Part shown: positions 41,795 to 48,954 of the stretch, in pieces
How positions within the stretch are numbered: position 1 is the first letter of the stretch
Layout: every line of letters begins with the position of its first letter
NCBI GenBank assembly: GCA_002687275.1
Contig: NYZT01000026.1
Coordinates: 1-48,954, forward strand
Source: Candidatus Woesearchaeota archaeon
GTDB taxonomy: Archaea > Nanobdellota > Nanobdellia > Woesearchaeales > ARS49
Reading direction: 5' to 3'
DNA length: 48,954 nt
The notes under the pieces: generated by a model
The model's database searches: none
Seen by the model: the letters and a program-made list of their open reading frames with translations, nothing else
What the model was told of the DNA's origin: nothing
Made by a program: the position numbers and the translations under genes

Positions 41795-41800
41795 CGCGTG

Positions 41801-42025
41801 TTATTTTCTCAACTTGAAGAATTCGTTTCTTTCCATGCCGATTTCGTCTAGAATGGCTCCGAGCAAGCCTCGACTGATATCTTTGTTTGTGTGAATTGGA
41901 ACCGTGGTTGCTCTGCCATCGTTGTGCTTGTAAAAGCGATGGCTGCCTTTTTGTCTATCGACAACAAAACCCTGCTTTTCCAAGAATTTGCACAGCTCCC
42001 GAGAAGATAGCAAGGGTAGCTTCAC
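41801..42025 (-). CDS. hicA: HicA-family toxin
   Basis: LPLLSSRELCKFLEKQGFVVDRQKGSHRFYKHNDGRATTVPIHTNKDISRGLLGAILDEIGM. Confidence 0.9.
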   Translation of the reverse strand: MKLPLLSSRELCKFLEKQGFVVDRQKGSHRFYKHNDGRATTVPIHTNKDISRGLLGAILDEIGMERNEFFKLRK

Positions 42026-42243
42026 GCCTCGACCTCAACGGTCTTAACGTCAACAAAGCGAGAAGTTGACTCGTCCGCTGCTTCCAGGCATACTGCAATA
42101 GCTTCTTTAATGTGATCCAAGAGCTCTTCAATAGTGTCCCCTTGGCTGAGGCAGCCCTTCAACTCAGGAACGCGACCTACAAATACTCCGTCCTCGTCCT
42201 GCTCAATAATGACGCTAAACTTTCGAGACATAGGTATTTCCAT
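42022..42243 (-). CDS. hicB: HicB-family antitoxin
   Basis: FSVIIEQDEDGVFVGRVPELKGCLSQGDTIEELLDHIKEAIAVCLE; overlaps hicA. Confidence 0.9.
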   Translation of the reverse strand: MEIPMSRKFSVIIEQDEDGVFVGRVPELKGCLSQGDTIEELLDHIKEAIAVCLEAADESTSRFVDVKTVEVEA

Positions 42244-42433
42244 GCTTTGACTGCTTAAATAACTTTCGTCGATGCCCCTGCTGGACTCCGGACAGATCTG
42301 TTCGGTTCTCCAAGAATGATGATGTCGAGGATGTGCTGAGCCAATCTGCCCAAAAGCAACGCAAGGTTGGTTTTAAGCATCCTTGAGTAAACCATCAGAT
42401 GGTTTTTTATACCTGTATTTTTTCTCCTCAGCA

Positions 42434-43570
42434 ATGACAGATACAACTTCCGAAATAACCTTGGCAGAGAAAGCAGAACAGCTTGAAGAGCGTTTTGCAC
42501 TTGAAGAATTAGAAGCCCTAGAGGCTGTTAAGGACGCAGCACAGGCTAAGAACCGAAAGGCTCTCCAAGCAGCGGTTAGCCAGGTAGGGGTGTTTGAGCA
42601 TAATTTGTTCAATGCACATGAGGAGATGCTCTCACATATTACTGTGGTCTGCGCGGCAATGCCCGATCATGCTGCCACCTTGACGAAATTGGAAAAACAG
42701 ATCGAGGTGCACGTCCAAACCGTGGTTGACGTTATCAGTGCCCAGGGTGGAAGTTTGTGGGGCTTTGCAATGGTTAGAGATGTATCCTGGCATTTGGTTC
42801 TGAGGGAGGTAACGCGTGTCGAGAATGCCCTGAAAGCATGGGTCGCTCTTGGCCTGCAGGTGCTGGAAGAATTCAAAGTCCAAAAAAAAGAATACTCCGC
42901 TTTGCTTACGTCTGCACAAGACCGAATCCTTGGATTGCTTCGCGGAGACCACTCACAAGAAAAACGTACCCGGGTGTGGAACCGTTGGTCGAGAGTTATT
43001 ACTGACCGAAAATTTGACAACCTTAACTTGAAGGGGGCCAATCTCGCAGGTTTTGATTTGCATGAATTCAAATTCTTTGGAAAGACTAATTTAAAAGATG
43101 CCAATCTGCAGCATGCCAACTTGACAGGTGTGCACTTGGCTAGAAATATCATCTCGTCTGCTGACCTGTCTGGAGTTAATTTGTCGGGTGCTGACCTGAC
43201 GGGTGCGGTAGTGTGGGGTGTTAATTTGACGGGTGCCAAATTGGTGGGGGCCCAGATGTCTAACTCTACATGGAAGGGTTCTAATTTAAAGGAGGCAGAT
43301 CTCAGGGGGGCTATGATGGAGCATGCCTCGTTTCAGGGCGTCAATTTTAGTGGAGCCAATCTTCAAAATGCTTACATGGTCCAAACCGCCCTATGGGATG
43401 CACTTCTAGAAGGGGCCGATCTGAAGGGTGCTAACCTTCGAGAAGTGCAGTTGTCTGGCGCAGACCTGAAAGGGGCAAAGAACTTGACCGTTGAGCAGTT
43501 TGAGAGTAGATACTCGCGTGATAGTCCACCCAAGAGTCTTCCCTCGCATCTTCAGCAAGAAACCCCGTGA
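42434..43570 (+). CDS. Pentapeptide-repeat protein with N-terminal helical domain
   Basis: Repeats such as NLKGANLAGFDL, ADLSGVNLSGADLTGAV, ADLKGANLREVQLSGADLKGA; TATA ~25 nt upstream of ATG. Confidence 0.88.
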   Translation: MTDTTSEITLAEKAEQLEERFALEELEALEAVKDAAQAKNRKALQAAVSQVGVFEHNLFNAHEEMLSHITVVCAAMPDHAATLTKLEKQIEVHVQTVVDVISAQGGSLWGFAMVRDVSWHLVLREVTRVENALKAWVALGLQVLEEFKVQKKEYSALLTSAQDRILGLLRGDHSQEKRTRVWNRWSRVITDRKFDNLNLKGANLAGFDLHEFKFFGKTNLKDANLQHANLTGVHLARNIISSADLSGVNLSGADLTGAVVWGVNLTGAKLVGAQMSNSTWKGSNLKEADLRGAMMEHASFQGVNFSGANLQNAYMVQTALWDALLEGADLKGANLREVQLSGADLKGAKNLTVEQFESRYSRDSPPKSLPSHLQQETP

Positions 43571-43637: not shown

Positions 43638-43709
43638 TGCCCCTGCTGGGAGTCGAACCCAGATCTTACCGACCGCAACGGTACAGTCTATCCATTAGCC
43701 TACAGGGGC
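43638..43709 (-). tRNA. tRNA-Arg(GCG)
   Basis: Reverse complement GCCCCTGTAGGCTAATGGATAGACTGTACCGTTGCGGTCGGTAAGATCTGGGTTCGACTCCCAGCAGGGGCA folds as a cloverleaf; anticodon loop TTGCGGT. Confidence 0.9.
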
Positions 43710-43753: not shown

Positions 43754-45223
43754 CTACTTTACCAGCCGGCTTTGGACAACGTTCTCGCCCATTTGCTTTT
43801 TGAGATCGCGAGCCACGGCCTGTCCTAGTAAGCGGTTGAGCATGTCAAACTTCGTACGCTTTACATCAACAGCCGTTTTAACACCGTTGTTGAACAGCGT
43901 TCTTGCTCTGACTCTTCCGATACCTTTGAAGCGGATTAGGTCGAGCAGTTCTTCTTTGACACCGTTTTGCAATCGTAGTTTTGTTTTGTACACTCTTTTG
44001 GAAAGCTCTCGTTGCCCGGATATTTTGGCGATTTCCATGGCTGCGTACGTCAACCATTTTGCTTTCTCAATTTTGTTGCGTAATTCTCCGGGTGTGATGT
44101 TTTTTGTTTCGAGTATGACTGCTTCATTTTTTTCGTCCATCCAATCTTTCAACACAGTTGCTGTTTTCAATGCAGGAAGGTAGTCTTCAGAAAAGACATC
44201 ATCCACGTCTTCTTCTAGAGCCACTTGTTGCAGGCTTTCGTATTCTGCCTGGCGTATGCCAAACAAGGGTTTCATTTCTACGCAATCGCAAAGCAGGTAC
44301 AACAGTCCTGTGTCGGTCATGTGCGTGTTTAGTTCTGTTCGTATCTTGTGTGCGGTTAATGGATCGATGTACAACTCTGCAACTCTTCTTCCTAATCGTG
44401 TTGCCTCTAGTGTTTTTCCTTTTTTGATCTGCTCGATTTCTTCTAAGAGGTTTACCATGCGTTCGATGATTTCTTCTATCTCGTGATGGTCTTCATACTG
44501 GTGGGCCCAGAAAGTTTTGGAAAAAAAGTCCCTGAGTTGTTCTTGTGTTCTTGCAATTCGGGTGACGATTAAACTTAACACATACGTTCTTAGGACGGGT
44601 TCTACGGCAAGTTTGGATAAAATATTTTCTGGTTCGCCGTTGATGTACTCGTCAACGATGTGCTCTGCGTCATCTTCGCTATTCGCGATGCATATTGCTT
44701 CGCCAAAGGTGTCGTATTTTGGTCGTCCTGCACGACCGGCCATCTGGTGGTATTCTAGCACGGGTATGAAATTCATGCCAAAACTGTCAAAGCGTTTCAA
44801 ATCTCGAATGATGGCTCTAAACGCGGGAAGGTCGAGGCCTGCTGCTAGGGTTGGCGTGCACGCGATTATTTTGATGGTGCCGTCGCGAAAGCCATCTTCC
44901 ACTAATGTTTTTTGTTTCGAGTGCAAGCCTGCATGATGGAAGGCCGTGCCTTTTTGTACGCAACGGTACAAGCGTTCGCATTGTTTGGTGGGCGTGGGAA
45001 GCACGTTTCTTACTTTTTCTGCTAGTGCCTCGCAGGAGAGATTGGTTTTCTTACTGATGCTTTCGGCTTCTTTTTCCGCACTTCTTTTTGTGTTCACAAA
45101 CACCAACGCTTGCTTGTCCTTTGCGATGGTGTCTAGAGCTAGATTTATGGTGTGCTCTTTGGCTATTTGCTTTATTTCCACGTGTTTTCCAAGGAGCGAA
45201 AGTTTATAAACCCTTGTCGGCAT
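43754..45223 (-). CDS. hel308: Hel308-type helicase, C-terminal half (RecA2 and downstream domains only)
   Basis: ALVFVNTKRSAE, FHHAGL, IIACTPTLAAGLDLPAFRAIIRD (motif V), EYHQMAGRAGRPKYD (motif VI), C-terminal GIGRVRARTLFNNGV HhH; no Walker A or DEAH present; stop codon directly before the ATG. Confidence 0.82.
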   Translation of the reverse strand: MPTRVYKLSLLGKHVEIKQIAKEHTINLALDTIAKDKQALVFVNTKRSAEKEAESISKKTNLSCEALAEKVRNVLPTPTKQCERLYRCVQKGTAFHHAGLHSKQKTLVEDGFRDGTIKIIACTPTLAAGLDLPAFRAIIRDLKRFDSFGMNFIPVLEYHQMAGRAGRPKYDTFGEAICIANSEDDAEHIVDEYINGEPENILSKLAVEPVLRTYVLSLIVTRIARTQEQLRDFFSKTFWAHQYEDHHEIEEIIERMVNLLEEIEQIKKGKTLEATRLGRRVAELYIDPLTAHKIRTELNTHMTDTGLLYLLCDCVEMKPLFGIRQAEYESLQQVALEEDVDDVFSEDYLPALKTATVLKDWMDEKNEAVILETKNITPGELRNKIEKAKWLTYAAMEIAKISGQRELSKRVYKTKLRLQNGVKEELLDLIRFKGIGRVRARTLFNNGVKTAVDVKRTKFDMLNRLLGQAVARDLKKQMGENVVQSRLVK

Positions 45224-45234
45224 TTAATAAGCAT

Positions 45235-45309
45235 GGTCCCGTAGCTCAGCCTGGTTAGAGCGCCGCTCTGATAAGGCGGAGGTCCGGTGTTCGAATCACC
45301 GCGGGACCA
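45235..45309 (+). tRNA. tRNA-Ile(GAT)
   Basis: GGTCCCGTAGCTCAGCCTGGTTAGAGCGCCGCTCTGATAAGGCGGAGGTCCGGTGTTCGAATCACCGCGGGACCA; TATA TTTATAAA about 30 nt upstream. Confidence 0.95.
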
Positions 45310-45315
45310 TTCATT
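45297..45315 (+). repeat. tRNA-Ile 3'-end repeat R1 (in the intact tRNA)
   Basis: CACCGCGGGACCATTCATT; identical to R2. Confidence 0.9.
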
Positions 45316-45337
45316 ATTTCTGCAAGTTGAGGTATTG

Positions 45338-45352
45338 CCGGAAAGTTTCCGG
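45338..45352. repeat. Perfect inverted repeat upstream of module A
   Basis: CCGGAAAGTTTCCGG; related CGGAAAGTTTCCG at 48007-48019 upstream of module B. Confidence 0.7.
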
Positions 45353-45363
45353 GATACAAATCG

Positions 45364-45389
45364 AAAGGTATATAAATGGTAATACCTTT
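45364..45389. promoter_or_regulatory. TATA box embedded in an inverted repeat (candidate autoregulatory operator)
   Basis: AAAGGTAT-ATAAATGGTA-ATACCTTT ending ~10 nt before the ATG at 45399; near-identical element at 48032-48057. Confidence 0.6.
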
Positions 45390-45398
45390 GTAATTCGT

Positions 45399-45803
45399 AT
45401 GGTTACAGAAATTATTCCAACGAAGTTTCCAGAGCAAGATGTGAAAGCAATGGATGCACTCATAAAAAAAGGAGTCTTTATTTCCCGAAGCGACCTGATT
45501 AGAGACGCTGCTCGAGAGAAAATTAGGGAAGTTAAGGCACCAAATGAGTTTGAGAAAGCCGTAAAGGTAATGGCTGCAAAAGGCGATTTTTCCAGCCTAG
45601 AAGGCAGGACCTTAGCATCTCTTTTCTTGAATCCGGAAAAACAGGGGTTTAATCCTGCTGAAAAAAAGACTATTGCCAAACTTCTTCGTCATCCATTTAA
45701 AATTCTAAAAAAACTTAGAACAAGAGTTGAATTGACAGATAATGGCCAGAAGATTGCCCGAGGTTATCTGAAGGGCTTGGCCTTTGCTCAAACACTTGCA
45801 TGA
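45399..45803 (+). CDS. RHH-wHTH DNA-binding protein, module A protein 1
   Basis: MVTEIIPTKFPEQDVKAMDALIKKGVFISRSDLIRDAAREKI (RHH) plus VELTDNGQKIARGYLKGLAFA (wHTH-like); 134 aa, ~92% identical to 48067..48471 by eye. Confidence 0.8.
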   Translation: MVTEIIPTKFPEQDVKAMDALIKKGVFISRSDLIRDAAREKIREVKAPNEFEKAVKVMAAKGDFSSLEGRTLASLFLNPEKQGFNPAEKKTIAKLLRHPFKILKKLRTRVELTDNGQKIARGYLKGLAFAQTLA

Positions 45804-46054
45804 CCTCATTGGAAGGGAAGGATCTAGAAATTTTTTGCAAAACCGCTAAAACTATTTTCAAAAAAGGCCATCTTAATTTCGATGCCATTTTACGTTTTAT
45901 CGGGTCAAGGAATCATAAGCAAGACCAGAAAACGTTAGAAAAGTTGTATAAACTTGGCTTAATAGTAAAGCATAGGTCTGATACTTATGAGCTTTCTAGT
46001 ATTGGGAGAATGCTTGCAATGGATCAGTGTGAGTGGTTTAAGGAGCGCCATTAA
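45800..46054 (+). CDS. Small wHTH-like protein, module A protein 2
   Basis: 84 aa; ATGA overlap with protein 1; close homologue at 48468..48722. Confidence 0.75.
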   Translation: MTSLEGKDLEIFCKTAKTIFKKGHLNFDAILRFIGSRNHKQDQKTLEKLYKLGLIVKHRSDTYELSSIGRMLAMDQCEWFKERH

Positions 46055-46056
46055 AA

Positions 46057-46075
46057 CACCGCGGGACCATTCATT
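46057..46075 (+). repeat. tRNA-Ile 3'-end repeat R2
   Basis: CACCGCGGGACCATTCATT, exact copy of 45297-45315. Confidence 0.9.
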
Positions 46076-46325
46076 CTATTAAGTCCTCAATATCCTCTCT
46101 CTTTTTCGGATTGAGACTAACTTCTAATCCGTAATGTGTTGGCTTGGAAAGCAGTAATTTATCTTTCAATAATTCTTCAATGGCTTTCTTAACCTCTTTT
46201 GACACTCTGAGAGTGTTGGAGAGCCCTTTTGGCAAGTTATTGATATTGGTATGCTTGTGCAGCCACATTCGTTTCCTGTACAATTTTCGCACGATAAATT
46301 TCTGTATGACTTGCTTCTCATCCAT
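46071..46325 (-). CDS. Small archaeal wHTH-like protein
   Basis: 84 aa; HKHTNINNLPKGLSNTLRVSKEVKKAIEELLKDKLLLSKPTHYGLEVSLNP; stop codon lies inside R2. Confidence 0.65.
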   Translation of the reverse strand: MDEKQVIQKFIVRKLYRKRMWLHKHTNINNLPKGLSNTLRVSKEVKKAIEELLKDKLLLSKPTHYGLEVSLNPKKREDIEDLIE

Positions 46326-46343
46326 GGATTCTCTAATAGGGAG

Positions 46344-46372
46344 TTGTTATATTAATAACTTCCGTTTTAGTA
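46344..46372 (-). promoter_or_regulatory. Candidate shared promoter/operator element, copy 2
   Basis: TTGTTATATTAATAACT-N5-TTTAGTA, same as 4522-4550. Confidence 0.5.
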
Positions 46373-46426
46373 TCTATGTTCTCTGAAATAGGAATGCTTA
46401 AATACTTGCCAGCCTTTCAAGTCTCT

Positions 46427-46747
46427 ATGGAAGAAAAGAGTGTGTTTGTGGAGTATTTTGGTGACTATCCGTTTATTAGGGTGCTGGACTTTTTGATCGA
46501 AAGTAGAGAAATGGACTATAGCATGACGGAAATAGCTAGGAATTCGAGGGTTGGCTGGACTTCTTTTTCTGAAATATGGCCCTCATTGATAAAAAAAGAG
46601 ATTGTCTCTCTGACAAGAAAGGTAGGAAATGCAAAATTGTTCAAACTCAACACCAAAAACTTGTGGGTAAGAGAGTTAATACGCATGGATAAAGTTATCA
46701 CTAAGCTGGAAACTGAGAAAATACTTCCAAGAAAGGTTGTTGCCTAG
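46427..46747 (+). CDS. Winged-helix DNA-binding protein (widespread archaeal type)
   Basis: VFVEYFGDYPFIRVLDFLIESREMDYSMTEIARNSRVGWTSFSEIWPSLIKKEIVSLTRKVGNAKLFKLN; TATA CTTAAATAC ~25 nt upstream. Confidence 0.75.
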   Translation: MEEKSVFVEYFGDYPFIRVLDFLIESREMDYSMTEIARNSRVGWTSFSEIWPSLIKKEIVSLTRKVGNAKLFKLNTKNLWVRELIRMDKVITKLETEKILPRKVVA

Positions 46748-46750
46748 TCA

Positions 46751-46777
46751 GGTGTTCGAATCACCGCGGGACCATTC
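46751..46777 (+). repeat. tRNA-Ile 3'-end repeat R3
   Basis: GGTGTTCGAATCACCGCGGGACCATTC, exact copy of 45286-45312. Confidence 0.92.
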
Positions 46778-46810
46778 CTATTTTTATACTAGTAAACTTT
46801 CCCTCGTCAT

Positions 46811-47944
46811 ATGAAAAAGAGGTTTGTTGAAACTGTTATAATTGGCGGAGGGATGGCCGGCATAGGATGCGCCCGGACGCTGCTAAAGAAAGGCCACAAG
46901 AACTTTAAATTGATCACTGAGGATATCGGTGGGAGGCTTCGAATGTCTGATGATGGACATGTCGCTTATGGGGCTTATTTTATTGGCGATGATTACCACC
47001 ATACCAAAAAATTCTTTAAGAAGGTGAGGGAGATTAACATTTTCAGGGTGAGATTTCATGACGCGTCAGGTTCTTACAAGACGGTGAGTTCCTTTTTGCA
47101 TCCTATTCAGGTCCTCAAATTCCTTTACTTAATCAACAAATTCCGAAGGCACTATGAGGGCTTGAAAAAAAGATGTGAAGCGGTAAGCCAACCTGTTGCG
47201 CTAAAGGAGGACGAATTCCTTTATGGTCTTTACAAAACAAGGGCAATTGATTTTGTTAAGAGTCAAGGCATACATGGAATTAGCAATAAGTTCATGTCGG
47301 AAACCATGTATGGGCTAATTTTCCTGGGACTTGAGGAATACTCTGCTTTTGAATTCTTTAGATGGATGCAGTACTTTAACCGGCCACTATTTGAATTTCA
47401 CTTTCTGAAGGAAAAATTCCTGTCAGGAATAAAACGAAAAATTATTTTTGGCAAAGTCGTGAGGATTTCCAAGAAGAGAGACTCTTATGAAGTTAAATTT
47501 AAAAAAGAGGTTTTGTCTTGCAAAAATTTGGTTGTAGCCACCCCCCCACACATTTCAAAGAGGCTTCTGGGTATTCAAAAGATAAAAAAACCCGCAAAGG
47601 CCTACATGTTTCACATAAGAGGAGTTATCCGACCCCCTTGGGCTGATGATTACGAATTATTTTCTCAACATTCCGAATTAATTGATATTGCTCATCAGCA
47701 TGATGGGTCTTACCTGCTGTATTGTTTGTCGCCTACCCCTAACTTAAGTAAGTACTTCTCTGAGCATGATTTGGTTAAGAAACTTCACTGGGACCCTGCT
47801 TTTAACGCCGCAGGCCATGTGCTGTGGGACTGCGAGGTTAAATCAAACCTTTTCTTGATCGGTGACCACAACATAATTGGCATGGAAGATGCCTTCATAA
47901 CTGGTATTTACGCAGCTAACCAAATTGTCAAAAAAATGCGGTGA
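46811..47944 (+). CDS. FAD-dependent oxidoreductase (amine oxidase/UGM-like Rossmann)
   Basis: TVIIGGGMAGIGCARTLLKKGHKNFKLITEDIGGRLRMS; C-terminal LFLIGDHNIIGMEDAFITGIYAANQIV; TATA directly after R3. Confidence 0.8.
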   Translation: MKKRFVETVIIGGGMAGIGCARTLLKKGHKNFKLITEDIGGRLRMSDDGHVAYGAYFIGDDYHHTKKFFKKVREINIFRVRFHDASGSYKTVSSFLHPIQVLKFLYLINKFRRHYEGLKKRCEAVSQPVALKEDEFLYGLYKTRAIDFVKSQGIHGISNKFMSETMYGLIFLGLEEYSAFEFFRWMQYFNRPLFEFHFLKEKFLSGIKRKIIFGKVVRISKKRDSYEVKFKKEVLSCKNLVVATPPHISKRLLGIQKIKKPAKAYMFHIRGVIRPPWADDYELFSQHSELIDIAHQHDGSYLLYCLSPTPNLSKYFSEHDLVKKLHWDPAFNAAGHVLWDCEVKSNLFLIGDHNIIGMEDAFITGIYAANQIVKKMR

Positions 47945-47985
47945 TTCGAACACCAACCTATTGTGGTCCGCGGGACCACCATTTT
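47938..47985. repeat. Composite tRNA-Ile end repeat R4 (inverted T-arm copy plus acceptor-end palindrome)
   Basis: GCGGTGATTCGAACACC (47938-47954) is the reverse complement of 45286-45302; followed by GTGGTCCGCGGGACCAC. Confidence 0.75.
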
Positions 47986-48066
47986 TTCTGAGTGTTGAGT
48001 CTTTCCCGGAAAGTTTCCGAACTATAAAACAAAAGGTATATAAATGGTAATACTTTTGTAACATGT

Positions 48067-48471
48067 ATGGGTACAGAAATTATTCCGACGAAGTTTCCAG
48101 AACAAGATGTTAAGGAGATGGACGCGCTTGTTAAGAAGGGAGTCTTTATTTCTAGAAGCGATCTAATTAGAGACGCCGCTCGGGAAAAAATGAGAGAAGT
48201 TGGGGCGCCAAATGAGTTTGAGCGTGCAGTAAAAGTAATGGCTGCAAAGGGCGATTTTTCTAGCCTAGAAGGCCGGACCTTGGCCTCGCTTTTCTTGAAT
48301 CCGGAAAAACAGAGGTTTAGCCCTGCGGAAAAAAAGGCCATTGCCAAACTCCTCCGTCATCCATTCAAAATTCTTAAAAAAATTAAAACGAGAGTTGAAT
48401 TGACAGATAACGGCCAAAAGATTGCCCGAGGTTACCTGAAAGGCTTGGCCTTTGCCCAAACACTTGCATGA
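48067..48471 (+). CDS. RHH-wHTH DNA-binding protein, module B protein 1
   Basis: MGTEIIPTKFPEQDVKEMDALVKKGVFISRSDLIRDAAREKM...; 11 differences from module A copy over 134 aa by eye. Confidence 0.8.
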   Translation: MGTEIIPTKFPEQDVKEMDALVKKGVFISRSDLIRDAAREKMREVGAPNEFERAVKVMAAKGDFSSLEGRTLASLFLNPEKQRFSPAEKKAIAKLLRHPFKILKKIKTRVELTDNGQKIARGYLKGLAFAQTLA

Positions 48472-48722
48472 CCTCCCTAGAAGGAAAGGATCTAGAACTT
48501 TTTTGCAAAACTGCTAAAACTATTTTCAAAAAGGGCCATCTTACTTTCGATGCCATTTTACGTTTTATCGGGTCAAAGAATCACAGGCAAGACAGGAAAA
48601 CGTTAGAAAAGTTGCACAAACTTGGCTTAATAGTCAAGCATAGAACGGATACTTACGAGCTTTCCAGCATTGGGAGAATGTTTTCAATGGATCAATGCGA
48701 ATGGTTCAAAGAACGTAAGTAA
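48468..48722 (+). CDS. Small wHTH-like protein, module B protein 2
   Basis: 84 aa; 10 differences from module A copy by eye. Confidence 0.75.
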   Translation: MTSLEGKDLELFCKTAKTIFKKGHLTFDAILRFIGSKNHRQDRKTLEKLHKLGLIVKHRTDTYELSSIGRMFSMDQCEWFKERK

Positions 48723-48727
48723 ATCGT

Positions 48728-48758
48728 TGTGGGCCGCTATTTTTTACAAGAGTGTTGC
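48728..48758 (+). repeat. Degenerate R4-like repeat (R5)
   Basis: TTGTGGGCCGC-TATTTTTTACAAGAGTGTTG aligns with TTGTGGTCCGC(GGGACCAC)CATTTTTTCTG-AGTGTTG at 47961-47997. Confidence 0.45.
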
Positions 48759-48769
48759 CGGGCTTAGAA

Positions 48770-48785: not shown

Positions 48786-48805
48786 TGCGCGCTTTTTAGG
48801 GTATG

Positions 48806-48877
48806 CCCCTGTAGCTCAGCCGGTAGAGCGAGTGACTGTTAATCACTAGGTCCGCAGTTCGAGTCTGCGCGGGGGCG
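48806..48877 (+). tRNA. tRNA-Asn(GTT)
   Basis: GCCCCTGTAGCTCAGCCGGTAGAGCGAGTGACTGTTAATCACTAGGTCCGCAGTTCGAGTCTGCGCGGGGGCG; anticodon loop CTGTTAA. Confidence 0.95.
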
Positions 48878-48954
48878 TTGGAATACAACCTAGAGCTTGA
48901 CAACGTGGCCAAACGTATCAAGGACGAGAAGGCCAAGACGGTCTGCATCCAACT
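48878..48954 (+). CDS. dph2: Dph2-like N-terminal part (runs off the window)
   Basis: TTG start directly after tRNA-Asn; (M)EYNLELDNVAKRIKDEKAKTVCIQ matches the Dph2 N-terminus pattern. Confidence 0.7.
   Translation, partial: MEYNLELDNVAKRIKDEKAKTVCIQ

Follow-up and report, generated by a model that had tools for sequence, protein, structure and literature searches.

Additive flexible genomic islands at tRNA genes are known from bacteria, among them fGI1 of Alteromonas (PMC4119200) and fGI-2 of Methylophilaceae (PMC10872708); in the latter the last 20 nt of tRNA-Lys recur as direct copies (PMC10872708), and islands down to 330 bp have been reported (PMC4119200, PMC10872708), most being large (to 42-110 kb) and present once or a few times per genome. 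The system described here lies downstream of tRNA-Ile(GAT) in a 48,954-nt stretch of Candidatus Woesearchaeota archaeon (contig NYZT01000026.1, assembly GCA_002687275.1; the whole stretch is referred to as the window). It resembles additive islands in that a conserved tRNA takes up cassettes that are present in one genome and absent from another, and in that direct copies of the tRNA end recur; it differs from them in its one- or two-gene cassettes, in the use of many tRNAs of a 1.1-Mb archaeal genome, in its richness in toxin-antitoxin genes and in its structured mini-units. It is therefore a miniaturised, many-tRNA archaeal variant of additive tRNA islands and not a new category, since such islands are known in bacteria. 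A first-pass annotation made from the letters of the window had regarded cassette accretion beside a tRNA as undescribed, which in that form is incorrect, as bacterial additive islands with recurring tRNA ends are published (PMC4119200, PMC10872708); literature searches for tRNA cassette arrays in DPANN archaea returned no paper describing such arrays. The favoured explanation, with a probability of roughly 0.62, is that these are tRNA 3'-end accretion arrays of tiny integrase-less cassettes, inserted site-specifically by a XerA-like recombinase acting in trans; the tRNA-Ile interval would then be a single instance among many in this lineage of Woesearchaeota.

Tycheposons of Prochlorococcus, as summarised in PMC10872708, are cargo elements of 4-200 kb with a resident recombinase; as far as that summary describes them, they share with the present arrays tRNA-linked integration, a tyrosine recombinase (XerD in tycheposons) and variable cargo, but the cassettes here have no recombinase of their own and usually measure less than 1.5 kb. 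The integrated mobile genetic elements of Thaumarchaeota have short att repeats at tRNAs (median 17 bp; PMC6563490). Integration at tRNA 3' ends and short att repeats are common to these, to elements of the SSV/pNOB8 types and to the present system, in which the integrase-bearing elements of 8-14 kb are of this sort; the cassettes, unlike archaeal tyrosine-integrase elements, lack an integrase, hold no more than two genes each and build up into arrays.

The main comparison was between two metagenome-assembled genomes of one genus, the source genome of the window (G000; assembly 1.09 Mb, 89.5% complete) and its congener Candidatus Woesearchaeota ETNP7_MAG_72 (G001), which are otherwise ~80% identical. 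The intact tRNA-Ile(GAT) gene (45234-45310, + strand), target and anchor of the array, is also present in G001 (contig JASMHM010000005.1, locus L017), where it is directly followed by the flank ATTCCTATTTTTATACTAG and then by a gene for an FAD oxidoreductase; in the window both come after an exact 27-bp copy of the tRNA 3' end (46751-46777, + strand; tRNA positions -25 to +2, identical to 45286-45312), downstream of which the flank is the same as that following tRNA-Ile itself in G001. Because G001 has this flank and the FAD gene directly after tRNA-Ile, positions 45313-46777 are, judging from the two alleles, a precise lineage-specific insertion at the tRNA 3' end. Precise repeat-to-repeat insertion at this end had been proposed in the first-pass annotation together with a search for empty alleles in relatives, and G001 carries the predicted one. 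The 27-mer occurs only twice in the whole 1.09-Mb assembly, with up to 3 mismatches allowed.

The insertion comprises two cassettes, both missing from this place in G001. Cassette A (45313-46075, + strand), an RHH/wHTH pair, encodes a 134-residue RHH protein (45399-45803, + strand; RHH_1, E 7e-6) and a small protein of 84 residues (45800-46054, + strand) that is wHTH by reading of the sequence and has no Pfam match, and ends in an exact 19-bp tRNA copy (46057-46075, + strand; -14 to +5). Cassette 2 (46076-46777, + strand) is a divergent pair of small proteins, one of 84 residues (46071-46325, - strand) with its stop codon within the tRNA copy and one wHTH-like protein of 123 residues (46376-46747, + strand) with its stop codon touching the 27-bp copy in which the cassette ends. 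Farther from the tRNA lie the FAD-dependent oxidoreductase cassette (46811-47944, + strand), a structured mini-unit (47938-47979, + strand) in which a 17-bp inverted copy of the tRNA-Ile T-arm (47938-47954) is followed by the acceptor palindrome GTGGTCC-GCG-GGACCAC (47963-47979), and cassette B (47980-48722, + strand), whose RHH/wHTH pair is paralogous to that of cassette A (~83% DNA identity over 300 nt; 92% protein identity). These three units are common to G001 and are older; the youngest unit thus stands nearest the tRNA, and the order therefore fits accretion. A decayed tRNA-Ile end is recognised at ~48722-48737 (+ strand) because the G001 ortholog reads ATCACCGCGGACCAT at the same place (L017:7434-7448), and tRNA-Asn follows at 48804-48878. 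The three repeats and the palindrome stand exactly where the first-pass annotation had put them, its compact gene units with paralogous pairs A and B are as it described, and the weak relative that it had marked at 48728-48758 gains support from the G001 reading; the AT-richness that it had remarked on is likewise real (GC 0.37-0.43 in the array interval vs ~0.48 upstream).

A second array in the window is anchored at tRNA-Arg(GCG) (43638-43709, - strand). Its first cassette, a gene for a pentapeptide-repeat protein (42434-43570, + strand), is closed by an exact 16-bp tRNA-Arg copy (42269-42284, - strand; -12 to +4), and its second, a HicB/HicA toxin-antitoxin pair (41801-42243, - strand), lacks a clear tRNA copy on the side away from the tRNA; both are missing in G001, whose synteny with the window picks up again at 41797. 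The discriminator base and flank of this tRNA are A and TCGA in the window vs G and TTAC in G001, as would follow if the tRNA end had come with the incoming element. A mirror case is found at tRNA-Trp, which is empty in G000 and filled in G001, where a displaced tRNA copy precedes the same flank; at tRNA-Ala(cgc), G001 represents the empty allele of a 48-nt unit. The presence/absence alleles by which additive tRNA islands are recognised are thus found between the two genomes at Ile, Arg(gcg), Trp and Ala(cgc). Each new unit adjoins the tRNA, which stays intact, and the far end of the unit is marked by the 3' strand of the T-stem and the 3' strand of the acceptor, usually from ~-12/-18 to 0/+4; direct copies at cassette borders include those of 27 and 19 bp at Ile, that of 16 bp at Arg(gcg) and four at Arg(tcg).

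Other tRNA neighbourhoods were compared as sequence stretches, with tRNA ends taken from ARAGORN, which in places may be 1-2 bases off. At orthologous tRNA loci of G000 and G001 the alignment mostly passes through the tRNA and ends a few bases from its 3' end. Size-changing synteny breaks (difference of at least 100 nt) fall at tRNA 3' ends (-6 to +12) in 17 of 56 cases, a zone that makes up 0.23% of the examined sequence (~0.13 expected), and at tRNA 5' ends in 3 of 56; this enrichment refers to positions within tRNA-centred regions and not to the genome as a whole. Direct copies of a tRNA's own 3' end number 14 downstream v 1 upstream in G000 and G001 together, and 24 v 0 in further Woesearchaeota (G012, G016 and G017 among them), for which less upstream than downstream sequence was searched. 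Copies of the own tRNA scoring at least 11 are present in 9 of 36 variable intervals (25%), vs 1.1% when the tRNAs are swapped, and downstream own-tRNA copies were found in at least five genera of the family; G002 has them too. Small integrase-less cassettes with polarised accretion beside a tRNA, as first proposed for tRNA-Ile, are thus borne out, and extend to many tRNAs and to several genera. In a sample of 42 tRNAs taken mostly from other families of the phylum, the copies within ~1.5 kb were one downstream and one upstream; tight arrays as a phylum-wide feature were rejected on this sample, and dense arrays thus seem to be a trait of the present family.

The cargo is dominated by small pairs. 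Cassette genes include HicB/HicA; a PemK-like gene with an adjacent AbrB-like one (AbrB-like by reading only, no Pfam match); several DUF2683 genes with toxins of the YafQ/ParE/HigB type; a MqsA/MazE-like antitoxin; RHH/wHTH pairs; divergent wHTH pairs; and single SET and methyltransferase proteins. In G001 the interval between two tRNA-Gln copies at tRNA-Gln(ctg) is filled exactly by the genes for a ParE-type toxin and its partner, and at tRNA-Leu(taa) a toxin gene has its stop codon directly against the tRNA copy. The divergent pair of the window has relatives (54/46% and 48/40% protein identity) at other tRNAs: in G000 at tRNA-Glu(ctc), flanked by Glu-specific copies, and in G001 at a third tRNA, where the downstream copy is weaker. 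As a whole the divergent wHTH family also occurs elsewhere than at tRNAs, only 5 of 26 loci having a tRNA within ~1.5 kb. No relatives of the RHH protein were found in viral contigs.

A candidate enzyme is provided by integrases that share the same sites. PF00589 tyrosine recombinases were matched in 19 of 26 family genomes (G001 has two), and many of them directly follow a tRNA 3' end and share its orientation. Integrase-bearing elements at Asp (13.6 kb), Gly (10.0 kb) and Tyr (8.35 kb) have end repeats of 13, 14 and 14 bp, respectively, that span -13 to 0/+1; cassette copies at Ala, Arg(tct) and Arg(cct) measure 13-16 bp and occupy the same place. Because the integrase-bearing tRNA elements have the same 13-14-nt footprint, integration of the cassettes in trans is plausible. 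The Tyr element (19781-28144 of L107, G012:C7) has a 437-residue integrase as its first gene, and two other of its proteins that were scanned have no Pfam match; it is possibly a helper virus or plasmid. The integrase at tRNA-Glu(ttc) of G001 is XerA-like and scores 29.5 bits vs the XerA cut-off of 220; no relatives of the tRNA-Glu integrase were found in viral contigs. In G001 a 4253-bp contig (L100, G001:C1) begins with a complete tRNA-Glu(ttc), followed by this intact 444-residue integrase (97-1428); on contig C14 it is a DUF2683 toxin-antitoxin cassette that stands after this tRNA, and the two are possibly alleles of one site in the sampled population.

The genome of the window itself gave no PF00589 match (89.5% complete). 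The search for a tyrosine recombinase that the first-pass annotation had proposed yielded a truncated, diverged 347-residue integrase match, below the reach of PF00589, on contig C43. The G001 integrase at tRNA-Glu(ttc) is 97% identical to this truncated copy, while a neighbouring core protein (the Hel308 half) is ~91% identical. The element at tRNA-Glu(ttc) of G000 has end repeats of 13 and 16 bp, on a contig that is probably chimeric: a 4.2-kb stretch of C43 (L049, 10126-14291) is 99.9% identical to G001, truncates the integrase and is a probable chimera or bin contamination. No recombinase was found among the open reading frames of the two window arrays.

Taken together, site-specific recombination would join the cassettes to the tRNA 3' end, catalysed by a XerA-like tyrosine recombinase of ~430-470 residues that larger, transient tRNA-targeting elements would supply in trans; the prevalence of toxin-antitoxin pairs and small regulators would reflect their resistance to loss. 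Such recombination by trans-acting enzymes is the best-supported mechanism; site and footprint are seen directly, and the action of the enzyme on the cassettes is presumed. Several observations weigh against this explanation: no intact integrase was found in G000 (89.5% complete); about three quarters of the variable intervals have no recognisable copy, owing to age or to another process; insertions at Pro and Met end without a tRNA copy; copy length varies from 11 to 27 bp; and plain attP identity does not explain why related cassettes have different tRNA ends.

Between the tRNAs and the cassettes stand gene-less units of 45-115 nt, each of which closes with a copy of the end of its local tRNA. 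The mini-units of G000 fold into a small hairpin followed by a long one that has the inverted and the direct tRNA end as its arms, although shuffled sequences would often fold as well as some of them do. Exactly three places in the G000 genome, each just after a tRNA, have the hairpin core GGCCAG(N)GCGCTGCC, and G012 has it once; the window element at 47938-47979 is a mini-unit of this kind and is conserved in G001. Specificity of the inverted arm for the local tRNA holds in G000 (mean normalised rank 0.10) and partly in G012 but fails in G016 (0.52); that mini-units in general contain the inverted end of their tRNA was therefore dropped as a rule. A MAFFT alignment of the mini-units was too poor for a covariance model. 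In G016 (L120, L121, L128) and G017 (L156, L159) tandem structured units of 45-115 nt follow tRNAs for Leu, Thr, Glu and Ser; their bodies hardly vary (e.g. CTGGCTTTAGCCAGGTGGGAATC in G016), their ends are copies of that of the tRNA beside them, and they may represent a family of small RNAs or of minimal mobile elements.

A more far-reaching view, to be held tentatively and on balance doubtful, is that the tRNA genes jointly serve as insertion platforms, whose T-arm and acceptor would be recognised by a trans-acting XerA-like recombinase, with cassettes switching between tRNAs and taking on the end of the target and with mini-units as the minimal mobile forms. If true, such a platform system would correspond in function to the integron but lack IntI and attC.

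An unlikely alternative to insertion of ready-made cassettes is decay, in which the units are remnants of larger integrase-bearing viruses or plasmids of which a streamlined genome kept only the addictive or useful genes. The integrase-bearing elements of 8-14 kb do share sites and footprint with the cassettes, the copy has been lost from many intervals, and the G000 integrase at tRNA-Glu(ttc) is truncated, although on the probably chimeric contig. Decay does not readily yield the related two-gene cassettes at tRNA-Ile and tRNA-Glu, which share the same boundaries and in which both flanking stop codons touch tRNA copies; because of this coincidence at two tRNAs, the compact two-gene unit itself would seem to move, which argues against piecemeal decay of larger elements. 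Nor is it easily reconciled with the several intact, complete toxin-antitoxin pairs in the arrays, each exactly between copies.

Casposons insert at tRNA 3' ends with repeats of ~14 bp, and transposition with target-site duplication, casposase-like or other, in which a staggered cut would duplicate the tRNA end, would account for copies that match the local tRNA also where the cassettes are related; the insertion site, the short duplications and the polarity recall these elements as well. This explanation is nevertheless quite improbable. Cas1 (PF01867) is absent from six family genomes, although an enzyme may be supplied from outside; the copies vary in length (11-27 bp), unlike the constant target duplication of casposons; no terminal inverted repeats were seen on inspection of the cassette ends; and the change of discriminator base on insertion at tRNA-Arg(gcg) is not predicted by plain duplication.

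Integrons, known also from archaea, Nanoarchaeota included (PMC9668308), hold small cassettes in arrays, toxin-antitoxin genes among them (12% of the integron genes of Alteromonas; PMC4119200), and take up new ones at one end, as do the present arrays; the G000 mini-units, moreover, fold into long hairpins. It is nonetheless very improbable that the cassettes form a true integron or an attC array (CALIN) that lies beside a tRNA by coincidence. The repeat is the tRNA's own end and differs between tRNAs; the gene cassettes end in plain direct tRNA-end copies, and it is the mini-units that fold into hairpins, as judged without an attC covariance model; and no IntI or attI was found, the IntI-specific domain not having been scanned separately. 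G000 has no PF00589 match and the G001 integrase, at 29.5 vs 220 bits, sits at a tRNA end, as assessed without a dedicated attC or IntI model. By the features tested the array is not an integron, and the label "integron-like" of the first-pass annotation fails as a statement of membership, the repeat being a tRNA end and not an attC palindrome. Artefact or chance, whether misassembly or random likeness to tRNA ends, is the least credible explanation, for although both genomes are metagenome assemblies and C43 is probably chimeric, the same array parts are present in two independent assemblies, swap and upstream controls are near zero, and several genera show the pattern.

Uncultured DPANN archaea have very small genomes in which gene gain is poorly known. 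Site-specific accretion at tRNA 3' ends offers them a place where gene turnover is concentrated, with a readable history, a testable junction signature and a candidate enzyme family, and would explain the spread of toxin-antitoxin and regulator genes in genomes of ~1 Mb. That related cassettes carry the end of their own host tRNA bears on target switching by tRNA-targeting elements in general. For annotation of Woesearchaeota a simple rule follows, namely to seek short copies of its own end downstream of each tRNA.

The gene beside tRNA-Ile (43754-45223, - strand) encodes only the C-terminal half of a Hel308-type helicase (Helicase_C to the HhH end), the N-terminal ATPase half being absent from this gene. 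The array was considered as a cause of this split and dropped, since the split is common in the phylum: the Hel308 frame is short (~490-610 residues) in 21 of 23 relatives checked and full-length in two (729 and 757 residues), and split Hel308 thus seems common in Woesearchaeota.

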